NCBI RefSeq assembly: GCF_028532485.1 | Contig: NZ_CP116942.1 | Coordinates: forward strand, 4,030,001 to 4,094,000 | Reading direction: 5' to 3' | DNA: 64,000 bases | From: Iamia majanohamensis | GTDB taxonomy: Bacteria; Actinomycetota; Acidimicrobiia; Acidimicrobiales; Iamiaceae | Shown here: one piece after another, positions 45,269 to 50,112 of the stretch | Position numbering within the stretch: the first letter of the stretch is position 1 | Layout of the letters: each line of letters starts with the position of its first letter | The notes under the pieces: model-generated | Told to the model about the DNA's origin: nothing | The model's database searches: none | Seen by the model: the letters and a program-made list of their open reading frames with translations, nothing else | Translations under genes and position numbers: made by a program

Positions 45269-46102
45269 TCAGGCGTCGGGGACCGAGGACCAGTCGCCGT
45301 AGCGGACGGTCCAGAGGGTGAGGCCGTGGGGCGGGGCCAGGTCGCCGGCGCGGGACCGGTCCCTGGCGTCCATGGCCGCCCGCACCTCGCCGGCCGCCAT
45401 CCGCCCCAGACCCACGGCGACGAGGGTGCCGACCAGGGCCCGCACCATCTGATGGCAGAAGGCCGACGCCTCCACCTCGAAGCGCAGGCGCCCGTCGCCG
45501 TCGTCGTGCCAGGCGGCCTCGGTGACCCGCCGCACCAGACTGGCCTCCACCTCCCGGCCCTTGGGGCGACGGCAGAAGGTGGAGAAGTCGTGCTCGCCGA
45601 TGAGCGGGTCGCAGCCCAGCCGCAGGGCGGGCAGCGACAGCGGCCGGGGCACGTGCCACGCCGTCCGGGCCGAGAAGGGGTCGGGCTCGGGGTGGTTCCA
45701 CACCAGGTAGCGGTAGCGGCGGGCGGTGGCCGAGAAGCGGGCGTCGACGTCGTCGCCCACCAGGGCGGGGTCGCGCACCGCCACCTCGGGACCGCACATG
45801 CGGTTCACGGCCCGGACCAGGGCGGTGAGGTCGTCGTCGCGGGTCACCCGGTCGGCGGCCACGTCGAGGGTGACGACCTGGCCCTGGGCGTGGACGCCCC
45901 GGTCGGTGCGGCCGGCGCAGGTGAGGTCGACGGGGTGGCCCAGGTGCCGGGCCAGGGCCTCGGTGAGGGTGCCGGCCACGGTGCGCACGCCGACGTTGCG
46001 GGCGAAGCCGTGGAACCCGCTGCCGTCGTAGGCGACGGTGAGGCGGAGCCGCCGGGTGGGGCCGGTGGGGGCCTCGGCCTCCGCCGGGTCGAAGAGGGTC
46101 AC
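45269..46102 (-). CDS. truA: tRNA pseudouridine(38-40) synthase TruA
   Basis: The 277-residue protein has the catalytic aspartate D67 in CAGRTDRGVHAQGQV, the N-terminal YDGSGFHGFARN and the HDFSTFCRRPKG segment. It modifies U38-40 in the anticodon stem. GTG 46102 follows TAGCGT (46111-46116) by 8 nt. In other actinobacteria truA directly follows rplQ; here about 6.6 kb of other genes intervene. Confidence 0.96.
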   Translation of the reverse strand: MTLFDPAEAEAPTGPTRRLRLTVAYDGSGFHGFARNVGVRTVAGTLTEALARHLGHPVDLTCAGRTDRGVHAQGQVVTLDVAADRVTRDDDLTALVRAVNRMCGPEVAVRDPALVGDDVDARFSATARRYRYLVWNHPEPDPFSARTAWHVPRPLSLPALRLGCDPLIGEHDFSTFCRRPKGREVEASLVRRVTEAAWHDDGDGRLRFEVEASAFCHQMVRALVGTLVAVGLGRMAAGEVRAAMDARDRSRAGDLAPPHGLTLWTVRYGDWSSVPDA

Positions 46103-46148: not shown

Positions 46149-47021
46149 CTACCGGGTCAGGCGCCGGACCCGGCCGCCGACCAGGTCGTCGGGCGGCACG
46201 TCGTCGACGGGGAGGAGGACGCCCCGGGCCACCAGGCGGCCGATGGCGGTCTGGGCCTGCTCGACCGACCAGCCGAGGCGGGCCGTCACCGTGGCCTGGT
46301 CGACGCGGCCGGCCATGGCCACCAGCACGGCCCAGGTCGCCTCGTCCATCGGACCGGTCGGCGCCGAGGGGCTGAGACGCCACCGCACGCGATCGTCGCC
46401 GGGGTCGGCCTGCTCGACCGCCTCGGCGGGGGGCGGCGTCGGGTCGGCGGCCACCTCCGGGCCCGGCGGAGGGCCGGAGGGGTCGGGCACCGAGGGGTCG
46501 GGGCCCAGCCGGGGCGGGGGGCGGCCGTCCACGCTGGCCGGGGCTCGGGGGGCCCGACCGTCGAGGGCGCCGTCGCCGGCGGCCGGGGAGCCCTCGGTCG
46601 CGGGGCCTGCGGCCCCGGCTCCGTCCTCGTCGGCGGTCGCCGGGTCGGGCCCGGCGTCGGCCAGCAGGTCGTCGACGGGCCAGCGCCACAGCCCCTGGGC
46701 CGGGTGCTCGGTCAGGTGGTGGAAGAAGTACCAGCCCTGCTCGCGCCCGAGGGCCTCGGCCAGGACCGTCACCGACGCAGGCCGGAGGCGCTCCTCGTCG
46801 GCCCGTCGCGCCGCCTCGAAGGCGGCGTCGTCCATGGCGTCGTCGATGCCCAGGTCGGGGTCCTCGCCCGCCCGGACGGCGAGGTAGACCGCCCCGTCGT
46901 CGAGGTAGATGCAGAGGGTCGGGCCGCCGTCGATCTCGATCCCCCCGGTCAGGCGCTCGGCCGCCGCGGTCCGGAGGACGTCGTCGAGGCGGTGGTGGGC
47001 CAGCTCCCCGCGGTGCATCAC
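46149..47021 (-). CDS. DUF4388-like protein with C-terminal winged-helix region
   Basis: The 290-residue protein begins with a DUF4388/PATAN-like domain (HHRLDDVLRTAAAERLTGGIEIDGGPTLCIYLDDGAVYLA). A helical segment, a 100-residue proline/alanine-rich linker (about 120-220) and a C-terminal helix-turn-helix-like part (ATVTARLGWSVEQAQTAIGRLVARGVL) follow. DUF4388 domains occur in signalling proteins of gliding and other bacteria. It may be a regulator, but no target is evident. GTG 47021 or ATG 47018 begins the frame. It is divergent from the oxidoreductase-sigma operon. Confidence 0.7.
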   Translation of the reverse strand: MMHRGELAHHRLDDVLRTAAAERLTGGIEIDGGPTLCIYLDDGAVYLAVRAGEDPDLGIDDAMDDAAFEAARRADEERLRPASVTVLAEALGREQGWYFFHHLTEHPAQGLWRWPVDDLLADAGPDPATADEDGAGAAGPATEGSPAAGDGALDGRAPRAPASVDGRPPPRLGPDPSVPDPSGPPPGPEVAADPTPPPAEAVEQADPGDDRVRWRLSPSAPTGPMDEATWAVLVAMAGRVDQATVTARLGWSVEQAQTAIGRLVARGVLLPVDDVPPDDLVGGRVRRLTR

Positions 47022-47154
47022 GGCGCCGGCACCTCGGAGACGGCACCGTCCACGCGGCAGGAACGAGGGGCGGGGGAGGCGGAGGGCACGGCAGGTCCTG
47101 GTCGTCGATGACGTCCACCCCTCGCGTCGGCCGGCGACGCCCGGCCTTGAGGGG

Positions 47155-47181
47155 TGTCACACCGGGGGTCCCTGCGTCGTC
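47155..47181 (+). promoter_or_regulatory. Putative ECF41 (SigJ-type) promoter
   Basis: TGTCACA (47155-47161) is followed after 16 nt by CGTC (47178-47181). This is the -35/-10 signature described for ECF41 sigma factors. It lies 39 nt before the first gene of an operon whose second gene is an ECF41 sigma factor, so autoregulation is likely. A second CGTC at 47175 offers a 13-nt spacing. Confidence 0.72.
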
Positions 47182-47220
47182 GAGGGGGTGACCGCCCTGC
47201 GCCCACCCGAGGAGGCCCCC

Positions 47221-48543
47221 GTGGCCCCGACCGAGCTCCCCCGCCGCCCCGTCCCCGACGCCCCGGTCGACGTGGCCGTCCTCGGGGGCGGTCTCGCCGG
47301 CCTGGCGGCCGCCGCCACCGCGGCGCGCGCCGGCGCGTCGGTGGCCCTGGTCGAGCCCCACCCCCTCGGGGGACGGGCCCGGGCCGACGTCGTCGACGGC
47401 TTCACCCTCAACCGCGGTCCCCGCGCCCTGTACCTCGACGGGGAGGGCGCGGCCGTGCTCGATGCGCTGGGGGTCCCGTGGCGCAGCGGCGGGCCGCCCC
47501 GGCTCGACGGTGGCCTGGCCCTCCGCGCCGGCCGCACCCACACCTTCCCCACGGGGCCCGGGAGCCTGCTCCGCACCGGCCTGCTGTCGGGCGCCGAGCG
47601 CCTCCGGGCCGCGGCGCTGCTGGCCCGCCTGTCGCGCCCCGACCGGCGGGGTCGCGACCGCGACCTGGTGGGCCGGACGGTCGGGTCCTGGCTCGAGGAG
47701 GTCGCCCCCAGCCCCGCCCTGGCCGACCTCCTCGCCGCGGTGGTGCGGCTCACCACCTACGTCGAGGCGCCCGCCGAGCTCGACGCCCACGCCGCGGTGA
47801 CCCAGGTCCGCCGGGGGCTCGGGGCGGGGGTGCGCTACCTCGACGGCGGGTGGCAGTCGCTCGTCGACGCCCTGGCGGGCATCGTCGCGACGGCGGGTGG
47901 CGTCCAGGTCGCATCCCGCGCCACCGCCGTCCACGAGGACGACGGCGGCGTCGAGGTGGAGACCGCCGAGGGCACGGTGCGGGCCCGGGCCGCGGTGGTG
48001 GCCCTCGGGTCACCGGGTGCGGCCGCCGCCCTCCTCGGCGGTCGGCCCGAGGGGTGGCCGACGGAGGACCGGCCGGCCACCGCGGCCTGCCTGGAGCTGG
48101 GGCTGCGGCGCGACCCCGCGCACCCCTTCCTGCTCGGCGCGGACGAGCCCGTGTACCTGAGCACCCACGCCCCGCCGGCCCGGCTGGCCCCCCCGGGCGG
48201 CGCCGTCGTCCACCTGCTCCGCTACCACGGGCCCGACGAGGACCAGTCCGCAGCGGACCAGCGGGCGAGGCTCCGGCAGGTCGCCGCCGAGGCCGGCATC
48301 GGCGACGACGACGTCGTGGTGGCGCGGTTCCAGGCCCGCATGGTGGTGACCGCAGCCCTGCCCCGCGCCGGCTCCGGCGGCCTGGCCGGGCGTCCGCCGG
48401 TGGCGGTCCCGGGCCGACCCCGGACCGCCCTCGCCGGTGACTGGGTCGGCCCCGCAGGGATGCTGGCCGACGCCGCCCTGGCCAGCGGGGCGGCCGCGGG
48501 CCGGCGTGCTGCGGCACCGCTCGCGAGACTGGTGGCGCCATGA
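47221..48543 (+). CDS. FAD-dependent oxidoreductase, phytoene desaturase/amine oxidase-like
   Basis: The 440-residue protein has the dinucleotide motif VAVLGGGLAGLAAA (22-27 for GGGLAG), an adenine-binding acidic residue in ALVEPHPLGGRAR and the C-terminal flavin segment ALAGDWVGPAGMLADAALASG. This is the layout of NAD(P)/FAD amine-oxidase and phytoene-desaturase proteins. The substrate is unknown. GTG 47221 follows AGGAGG by 6 nt and is preferred over GTG 47188. The gene overlaps the sigma factor by 4 nt (ATGA). ECF41 factors are typically paired with such oxidoreductases. Confidence 0.87.
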   Translation: MAPTELPRRPVPDAPVDVAVLGGGLAGLAAAATAARAGASVALVEPHPLGGRARADVVDGFTLNRGPRALYLDGEGAAVLDALGVPWRSGGPPRLDGGLALRAGRTHTFPTGPGSLLRTGLLSGAERLRAAALLARLSRPDRRGRDRDLVGRTVGSWLEEVAPSPALADLLAAVVRLTTYVEAPAELDAHAAVTQVRRGLGAGVRYLDGGWQSLVDALAGIVATAGGVQVASRATAVHEDDGGVEVETAEGTVRARAAVVALGSPGAAAALLGGRPEGWPTEDRPATAACLELGLRRDPAHPFLLGADEPVYLSTHAPPARLAPPGGAVVHLLRYHGPDEDQSAADQRARLRQVAAEAGIGDDDVVVARFQARMVVTAALPRAGSGGLAGRPPVAVPGRPRTALAGDWVGPAGMLADAALASGAAAGRRAAAPLARLVAP

Positions 48544-49424
48544 CCGCCACCGCCGCCAGCGAGGCCACCTTCGCGGCGGAGCGCGACCGCCTGGTCGGGG
48601 TCGCCTACCGGATGACGGGGAGCCGGGCCGAGGCCGAGGACGTGGTCCAGGACGCCTGGCTGCGGTGGCAGCGGGCCGACACCGAGGAGGTGGCCTGCCC
48701 CGCGGCCTGGCTGACCACCGTCACCAGCCGCCTCGCCCTCGACCGCCTCACCTCGGCCCGGAGCCGGCGCGAGGCCTACGTCGGCCCCTGGCTCCCCGAG
48801 CCGGTGGCGACCGACCCCGACCCGGCCGACCGGGCCGAGCTGGCCGAGTCCCTGTCGCTCGGGTTCCTCGCCGTCCTCGAGCGGCTGGGCCCGGTGGAGC
48901 GGGTGGTGTTCCTGCTGGCCGACGTCTTCTCGGTGCCCTTCGACGAGATCGCCCGGGTGGTGGACCGCTCCCCCGCCGCCTGCCGCCAGGTCGCGTCCCG
49001 CGCCCGGCGGCGGGTGCGCCAGGACCGTCCCCGCTTCCACCCCACCGACGCCGAGGCGCGCCGGGTGACCGAGGCGTTCCTCGGCGCCGTGGCCGTCGGC
49101 GACGTCGACGGCGTCACCGCCCTCCTCGCCCCCGACGTCGTGTGCGTGAGCGACGGGGGCCCCGACCACCACGCCGCCCGCCGCCCGGTGCGGGGACCGG
49201 AGCGGGTGTGCCGCCTGCTCGTGAACCTCACCCGTCGCCTCCCCGCCGCCGAGGCGTCCATCACGCCCCAGGACCTCAACGGCCAGCCCGGCGTGGTCGT
49301 CGAGGCGGAGGGCCGCACCCTGCTGGCCCTGGCCTGCTCGGTGGTCGACGGGGTCGTCGACCGGGTCTGGATCGTGGTCAACCCGGAGAAGACGGCTGCG
49401 CTGCAGGGCCCGCCGGTCACCTAG
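48540..49424 (+). CDS. ECF41/SigJ-family sigma factor with SnoaL-like C-domain
   Basis: The 294-residue protein has sigma region 2 (LVGVAYRMTGSRAEAEDVVQDAWLRW, 18-43), region 4 (about 105-160), and between them the ECF41 linker WLPEP (84-88). A SnoaL-like domain (175-290) contains a DGG segment (205-207) that corresponds to the family's DGGGK motif. In ECF41 factors this C-terminal domain tunes activity in place of an anti-sigma factor. ATG 48540 overlaps the oxidoreductase gene, so both are made from one transcript, apparently under an ECF41-type promoter at 47155-47181. Confidence 0.93.
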   Translation: MTATAASEATFAAERDRLVGVAYRMTGSRAEAEDVVQDAWLRWQRADTEEVACPAAWLTTVTSRLALDRLTSARSRREAYVGPWLPEPVATDPDPADRAELAESLSLGFLAVLERLGPVERVVFLLADVFSVPFDEIARVVDRSPAACRQVASRARRRVRQDRPRFHPTDAEARRVTEAFLGAVAVGDVDGVTALLAPDVVCVSDGGPDHHAARRPVRGPERVCRLLVNLTRRLPAAEASITPQDLNGQPGVVVEAEGRTLLALACSVVDGVVDRVWIVVNPEKTAALQGPPVT

Positions 49425-49425
49425 C

Positions 49426-50112
49426 TCAGCGCAGGTTGGCGAAGGCCTCCGCCACGCGCGCCTCGGCCGCCACCAGCAGGAGGTCCCCCTCCTGCACCAC
49501 CGTCTCGGCGGTGGCGTAGGTGAAGGTCTGGCCCACCGGCTTGATGCACACGATGGTCACCCCGTGGCGCTGGCGGGCCCCGCTCTCGCCGATGGTGCGA
49601 CCCACCATGTCGGCCGGGGCCGTGGTCTCGACCAGGGCGAAGTCGTCCTCCAGCTGGATCCAGTCGATCATCCGCCCAGTGACCTGGTGGGCCACCCGGT
49701 CGCCCATCTCCCGCTCGGGGAACACCACGTGGTGGGCGCCGACCCGGTCGAGGATGCGGGCGTGGGAGGCGGTCAGCGCCTTGGCCCAGATGGAGGCGAT
49801 GCCGAGGTCGACCAGCGCGCTAGTGGTGAGGATGCTGGCCTCGATGTCGGTGCCGATGGCCACCACGGCCACGGCGACGTCCTTGGCGCCGATCTCCTCC
49901 AGGGTCTCGATGCGGGTCGAGTCGGCCTGGAGGACGTGGGTCAGGCGGCTGGCGTGGTCGGCGACGATGCCCTCGGACGCGTCGACGCCCAGCACCTGGT
50001 GGCCCATCTCCTCGAGGGTGGTGGCCACGGCGGAGCCGAACCGGCCCAGGCCGATGACGATGGCGGCGTCGCCCGCCCGGAGGCGCAGGCGGGGTGCGGT
50101 GTGGTCAGCCAA
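49426..50112 (-). CDS. ktrA: KtrA/TrkA-type potassium channel regulatory subunit
   Basis: The 228-residue protein has a TrkA-N Rossmann (RCK) domain with VIGLGRFG (GxGxxG, near residue 20) and the acidic GVDASE, then a TrkA-C domain (about 140-228). It binds NAD(H) or ATP/ADP and gates the membrane subunit. TTG 50112 is the only plausible start and overlaps ktrB by 8 nt, with GGAG about 10 nt upstream. Together with 50105-51454 it forms a two-gene potassium uptake operon. Confidence 0.93.
   Translation of the reverse strand: MADHTAPRLRLRAGDAAIVIGLGRFGSAVATTLEEMGHQVLGVDASEGIVADHASRLTHVLQADSTRIETLEEIGAKDVAVAVVAIGTDIEASILTTSALVDLGIASIWAKALTASHARILDRVGAHHVVFPEREMGDRVAHQVTGRMIDWIQLEDDFALVETTAPADMVGRTIGESGARQRHGVTIVCIKPVGQTFTYATAETVVQEGDLLLVAAEARVAEAFANLR

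Follow-up and report, generated by a model that had tools for sequence, protein, structure and literature searches.

A probable two-gene ECF41 sigma factor operon in Iamia majanohamensis, with a broadly conserved promoter and a lineage-specific change in the sensor loop

Genes and features of the locus

The window, i.e., the whole 64,000-nt stretch that was analysed (genome positions 4030001-4094000), comes from the single 4.58-Mb contig of the Iamia majanohamensis genome and holds a gene for an FAD-dependent oxidoreductase followed by one for a sigma factor of the ECF41/SigJ type, with an ECF41-type promoter sequence ahead of both (Table 1). ATGA at 48540-48543 is common to the stop of the first open reading frame and the start of the second, which bears out the 4-nt overlap given in a first-pass annotation of this DNA. 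Two genes most likely make up the transcription unit, because both nearest neighbours face the opposite way and neither the DUF4388-like gene nor the TrkA-domain gene has a homologue in the flanks of the other loci examined. Pfam revealed no antagonist or anti-sigma gene among the neighbours scanned, and searches for Rfam matches (46900-47400) and terminators (46900-49700) found none. Two start codons come into question for the FAD gene, the GTG at 47221 and an in-frame GTG at 47188-47190, 7 nt past the -10 box; transcription starting at the latter codon would make the FAD message leaderless.

Table 1. Features of the ECF41 locus and its immediate surroundings, in window coordinates
Feature	Position	Strand	Details
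ECF41-type promoter TGTCACA-N16-CGTC, TGTCACACCGGGGGTCCCTGCGTCGTC	47155-47181	+	-35 box 47155-47161; -10 box 47178-47181
FAD-dependent oxidoreductase, 440 aa	47221-48543	+	GTG start; PF01593 E=5.3e-13
ECF41/SigJ-type sigma factor, 294 aa	48540-49424	+	ATG start; NCBIfam NF007214, Pfam, PDB 5xe7
DGGPD codons, changed DGG loop of the SnoaL-like domain	49152-49166	+	residues 205-209
NPEK codons, C-terminal ECF41 motif	49380-49391	+	residues 281-284
DUF4388-like gene (sub-threshold Pfam)	46149-47021	minus	nearest upstream neighbour
TrkA-domain gene	49426-50112	minus	nearest downstream neighbour, Pfam
truA	45269-46102	minus	homologue present in 7 other loci

The sigma factor is the only one of 17 matches to the NCBIfam SigJ model NF007214 in the host genome to exceed the cut-off (341.4 bits versus 271). 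Within NCBIfam, a check for other ECF groups brought up only the related SigX4 model TIGR02957, a narrow miss at 321 bits against a cut-off of 323.25, with no further model near its own cut-off. Pfam recognises Sigma70_r2 and Sigma70_r4_2, and SnoaL_2 scores 24.3 bits (E=4.9e-5), below the Pfam cut-off of 27. WLPEP, named as characteristic of ECF41 (PMC3426412), is kept, as had been claimed, within YVGPWLPEP at the sigma2-sigma4 linker from residue 80, and the N, P, and K of the C-terminal NPEK each recur in 74/74 comparison ECF41s. SigJ is the best solved relative (5xe7; 193.9 bits over residues 9-285), with SigG1 at 42.8 bits, and a predicted model has SigJ and SigG1 as its top structural matches, with NTF2/ketosteroid-isomerase-type and ECF structures next; its whole-chain TM to SigJ is low (0.33, with a pTM of 0.48) because the domain arrangement is poorly predicted. 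Family score, WLPEP, a SnoaL-like C-domain, NPxK, the promoter, and a COE partner without an anti-sigma gene were thus all found, and the first-pass assignment to ECF41 is supported by, among others, the NF007214 score and SigJ as best solved relative.

The partner enzyme carries PF01593 and NAD_binding_8 domains and an N-terminal FAD motif, and no NCBIfam equivalog comes near its cut-off (the best, HpnE, reaches 56.8 bits against 283). Foldseek gave roughly equal matches (TM ~0.5-0.6) to monoamine oxidase, NicA2, phytoene desaturase, protoporphyrinogen oxidase, and Rab GDI, from a model that speaks to fold class only because it rests on a 7-sequence alignment with a mean pLDDT of 72.7. Amine oxidases usually have a catalytic lysine, and no lysine is invariant in the seven aligned relatives. 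Judged from sequence and model, the enzyme appears assignable to superfamily level, with no substrate nameable. The description of the partner as being of the phytoene desaturase/amine oxidase kind therefore stands for the superfamily, by PF01593 and fold, and falls as a departure from known ECF41 partners, because Amino_oxidase is already among the ECF41-linked oxidoreductase domains (PMC3426412).

The promoter and the gene pairing across genomes

Within the window, TGTCACA-N15-17-CGTC matches once (shuffle mean 0.09, with 9/100 shuffled windows containing one match), and genome-wide the exact N16 form occurs once, at this locus, in 4.58 Mb. The other matches are two TGTCACA-N15-CGTC sites and one N16 site with TGTCACG; of these, one N15 site (1325503) and the TGTCACG site (3662733) seemingly lie within open reading frames, as called by a GC3-based ORF caller. 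The lone N16 site is weak evidence by itself, because about one would be expected by a rough estimate, and it is from this single site that the cassette may be inferred to be "self-contained", as it had been termed. A second CGTC beside the site at 47155 permits an N13 reading, over which N16 is favoured because 50/52 good sites in related loci are N16. No E. coli-type sigma-70 boxes were found in a scan of 46900-49700, which has low power at this G+C, shuffles also yielding 0.0.

The strongest and deciding evidence for the promoter is its conservation. We compared 53 loci (the window's and 52 others) with an FAD homologue (tblastn >140 bits) and an ECF41-type gene on the same strand, and scored the 11 box positions of the best site in the ~260 nt that lead up to the FAD match. 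Among these loci, which are related and not independent (the chain L173, L128, L083, L063, and L062 is >90% alike), 30 scored 11/11, 17 scored 10/11, five scored 9/11, and one scored 8/11, i.e., 52/53 reached at least 9/11 and 47/53 at least 10/11, versus 15.6% and 1.4%, respectively, of dinucleotide shuffles of the same regions (n=5300). The 52 good sites, the window's included, comprise 50 with N16 and two with N17 spacers, and the locus at 8/11 (L171) has an 11/11 N16 site directly beyond the scan edge. By per-position information content, the spacer is mostly variable across the 53 loci and the boxes are nearly constant. The TGTCACA-N16-CGTC sequence described upstream of the FAD gene is thus not only present there but conserved in related loci.

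The FAD gene comes first in 51/53 linked loci, and the sigma gene in L149 and L150; in L149 (G019), a 10/11 site stands before the sigma gene and an 11/11 site before the enzyme. Two further loci, L157 (G016) and L158 (G012), have a neighbouring ECF41 gene that is frame-broken or matched over its second half only, and keep the promoter at 10/11 and 11/11, respectively, despite these damaged or partial sigma genes. Separately, a scan, run without a shuffle control, of 900 nt upstream of 14 unlinked ECF41 genes of the order (L144, L203, L204, and L214 among them) gave seven sites of at least 10/11, four of them 11/11 at ~0.5-0.65 kb upstream, with that of L214 preceding a CMD gene.

To follow the pairing, we used samples of 298 genomes from the order and 396 from the phylum. 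An FAD homologue at E<=1e-45 occurs in 47/298 order genomes and a sigma match at the same threshold in 62/298, with not all of the matches belonging to the WLPEP type. An ECF41-type gene adjoins the FAD homologue in 42/47 genomes, counted as 41 at E<=1e-45 plus G012, whose sigma match has E=5e-39. The five FAD-bearing genomes with no sigma match at E<=1e-45 differ among themselves: G117, G175, and G251 have no motif of at least 9/11 within 260 nt of the FAD gene; G237 has the motif at 11/11 on a contig that ends inside the FAD gene, so that its sigma gene may be unassembled; and G026 has the motif at 10/11, no sigma match, and DNA present both upstream and downstream, which is evidence against a simple operon picture. 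Both L177 (G175) and L181 (G117), which have neither motif nor sigma match, include a flavodoxin-like gene at a distance of no more than a few kb (Pfam was run for L177 only).

Across the phylum sample, an FAD homologue at E<=1e-40 occurs in 9/396 genomes, four of which, the host included, were already counted. All five new FAD loci, which lie outside the order, have the promoter at 10 or 11/11 and a sigma-factor neighbour, the latter weak in L264 (78 bits), and the sigma gene precedes the enzyme in L262 and L264. A shared message is accordingly not universal, because the sigma gene is first in L149, L150, L262, and L264. A limited literature search found no work pairing Acidimicrobiia with ECF sigma factors, from which it does not follow that the clade is new to the literature.

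A candidate second target was also considered and not accepted. The N15 match at genome positions 700369-700394 (minus strand, L001) precedes an MMPL-family gene and could, from its sequence, be an ECF41 site: it scores 11/11 in the host, 10/11 in G001, and 9/11 in G007, three genomes with an FAD-linked ECF41 factor; G002 and G003, both of which lack the FAD homologue, score 8/11. Against this, G013 and G014 have a linked factor yet score only 8/11, the spacer is inconsistent (N15, N16) among relatives, and the conserved part of the MMPL upstream region is another element, approximately GTGACcGACGTCATCTGGACA, that is kept where TGTCACA is absent (10 aligned regions). This element (L001, with relatives in L242-L252) may itself act as an operator or promoter, and it overlaps the near-perfect ECF41-like site in the host genome and G001. 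The MMPL site counts against a single-target reading of the sigma factor.

The DGG loop of the C-domain

The loop at residues 205-209 reads DGGPD, with DGG kept and the third glycine replaced by P208. Among 74 comparison ECF41s, i.e., the best 80 of a longer match list minus two duplicates and four FAD-linked factors, the third G is present in 74/74, the first G in 57/74, and the K in 36/74. The loop had been described as a variant of DGGGK; it is indeed altered, and by these counts DGGGK overstates the consensus. The consensus used here derives from these 74 loci; the text of PMC3426412 mentions three C-domain motifs, whose letters were not found in that text.

We assembled 151 WLPEP-type sigma factors, 53 scored as FAD-linked and 98 as unlinked, the unlinked set leaning on the best 80 of the longer match list. 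Relative to the 53 promoter loci, the linked rows add L221 and L173_1 and drop L157 and L158 (sigma pieces <200 residues); L173_1, which is truncated and lies 6.7 kb away from the enzyme, has an unreadable motif, which leaves 52 readable linked rows. The third glycine is replaced in 50/52 of these (27 P, 19 A, 2 R, and 2 S), the in-order exceptions that keep G being L169 and L190, and in 6/98 unlinked factors, or 6/24 among those in the order. FAD-linked factors outside the order have DGGG in 4/4 readable cases, and four unlinked factors that lie outside the clade described below (L144, L214, L216_1, and L218) lack the third glycine; L214 and L218 have confirmed CMD partners.

When the motif columns were left out of tree building, the smallest clade to contain the linked non-G rows had 55 members (support 91), namely all 53 linked rows plus the unlinked L203 and L215, both non-G. 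A wider FastTree tree, approximate and with several long branches, shows six linkage changes and five glycine changes, and an independent-pairs test of loop against FAD partner has only two usable pairs. The association of loop and partner amounts to one event, because both traits sit essentially on one clade. From these comparisons, we conclude that the loop change is a lineage trait not tied to the FAD partner, and that ECF41 factors either acquired the FAD partner on more than one occasion or lost it several times. A partner-motif link as initially seen (non-G in FAD-linked factors, G in 74/74 others) is weakened by L169, L190, and the unlinked non-G rows, and further by one clade carrying both traits and by the four FAD-linked DGGG factors outside the order. 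The altered DGG motif of the first-pass annotation is hence a real change that belongs to a clade and is peculiar neither to this protein nor to the FAD partner. The clade suggests that the loop can dispense with its third glycine, and because this residue is lost, C-domain control may differ here from that in the studied species.

Interpretation and comparison with known ECF41 systems

We consider it highly probable that the locus is a two-gene autoregulatory ECF41 operon behind its own promoter. RNA polymerase with this sigma factor would start at TGTCACA-N16-CGTC and produce a single transcript that covers both the enzyme gene and its own gene, i.e., autoregulation, with no anti-sigma factor involved. 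The SnoaL-like domain, via the WLPEP linker and the NPxK end, would keep the sigma factor at low activity, a state from which a small ligand or redox change could release it by reshaping the protein, and the flavoenzyme might act on the signal compound or its product, thereby closing the loop. The sequences show the gene content, the overlap, the conserved promoter, and the single N16 site in the genome; recognition of the promoter, a single target, and control by a C-domain that would both permit and restrain activity are taken over from Wecke et al. 2012 (PMC3426412) and later reviews; which ligand and which enzyme substrate take part can be guessed at, as can a C-domain that would bind a small molecule tied to the flavoenzyme reaction.

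It seems very unlikely that the operon is real yet driven by a housekeeping promoter, with the TGTCACA site a chance occurrence or relic. Chance gains some ground from the ~1 match expected, by rough estimate, per genome of such size and composition, from the two N15 matches and one TGTCACG N16 match elsewhere in the genome, and from G026, which keeps 10/11 without a sigma match, but it fits poorly with 47/53 linked loci at 10/11 or better, nearly always with N16, against 1.4% of shuffles; for the housekeeping promoter itself, the sigma-70 scan came up empty, albeit with low power at this G+C. Placement of the sigma factor in another SnoaL-bearing group (ECF56, ECF205, ECF294, or ECF295) strikes us as exceedingly improbable. 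SnoaL-like extensions are found in those groups as well (PMC7730460, PMC8999054), and the low SnoaL_2 score and changed DGG loop would suit such a placement, but the SigJ model is over its cut-off, YVGPWLPEP, NPEK, and an ECF41-type promoter are all present, and SigG1 (ECF56) is without NPDKL (PMC7730460) and matches less well than SigJ (42.8 versus 193.9 bits).

With respect to the loop, we consider it unlikely that it co-evolved with the FAD partner in this clade, tuning the sigma factor to the substrate or product of the enzyme. The replacement of the third glycine in 50/52 linked versus 6/98 unlinked factors is what such co-evolution would leave behind, but the 55-row clade (support 91) makes this a single event, all four readable FAD-linked factors from outside the order retain DGGG, L169 and L190 keep G within the order, and the unlinked L144, L214, L216_1, and L218 lost the glycine outside the clade. 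Tentatively, and as something we hold rather unlikely, the clade may have a re-tuned sensor on an unchanged promoter, i.e., another ligand or mode of control, with the flavoenzyme making or consuming that ligand.

Read as an autoregulatory ECF41 operon, the locus is a sound, ordinary member of its group with a lineage-specific sensor-loop change of putative effect. Added here are the broad conservation of promoter and pairing and the finding that the loop change goes with a clade and not with the partner. The ~50 natural loop variants beside one conserved flavoenzyme and promoter provide a comparative set for finding the signal that ECF41 factors sense. Further, different partner enzymes behind one promoter make crosstalk possible where several ECF41 factors coexist, and genomes with several such factors may show it.

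Among known systems, the ECF41 loci of Wecke et al. 2012 (PMC3426412) have this gene order, promoter, and spacer: >COE> >ECF> is the commonest partnered layout there (107/373 loci, summed from the table), the promoter precedes COE in 97/107 such loci, and 5'RACE and lacZ data are given for two species. Trimming part of the C-domain increased activity ~20-fold in B. licheniformis and ~120-fold in R. sphaeroides, and full removal of the extension abolished ECF41 activity in both species (PMC3426412). A review describes the extension as inhibitory via linker contact (PMC8999054).

The flavoenzyme shares PF01593, the N-terminal FAD motif, and the fold class with the flavin amine oxidase/protoporphyrinogen oxidase/phytoene desaturase superfamily and differs from it in the lack of an equivalog match and of an invariant lysine among its relatives. 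Compared with the ECF41 systems of Bacillus licheniformis and Rhodobacter sphaeroides (PMC3426412), the fused C-domain, WLPEP, the lack of an anti-sigma gene, and a TGTCACA -35 box and N16 ± 1 spacer ahead of the partner gene are the same, whereas the partner in both studied species is a carboxymuconolactone decarboxylase and here a PF01593 flavoenzyme, with the loop DGGPD. SigG1 (ECF56, Streptomyces tsukubaensis) is without NPDKL and has an antagonist, RsfG, that controls it (PMC7730460), in contrast to NPEK and no antagonist among the neighbours scanned by Pfam at this locus. SigJ of Mycobacterium tuberculosis (5xe7) has the same sigma2, WLPEP, sigma4, and SnoaL-like domain, and its aligned loop, DSNGK, has G where this protein has P208.
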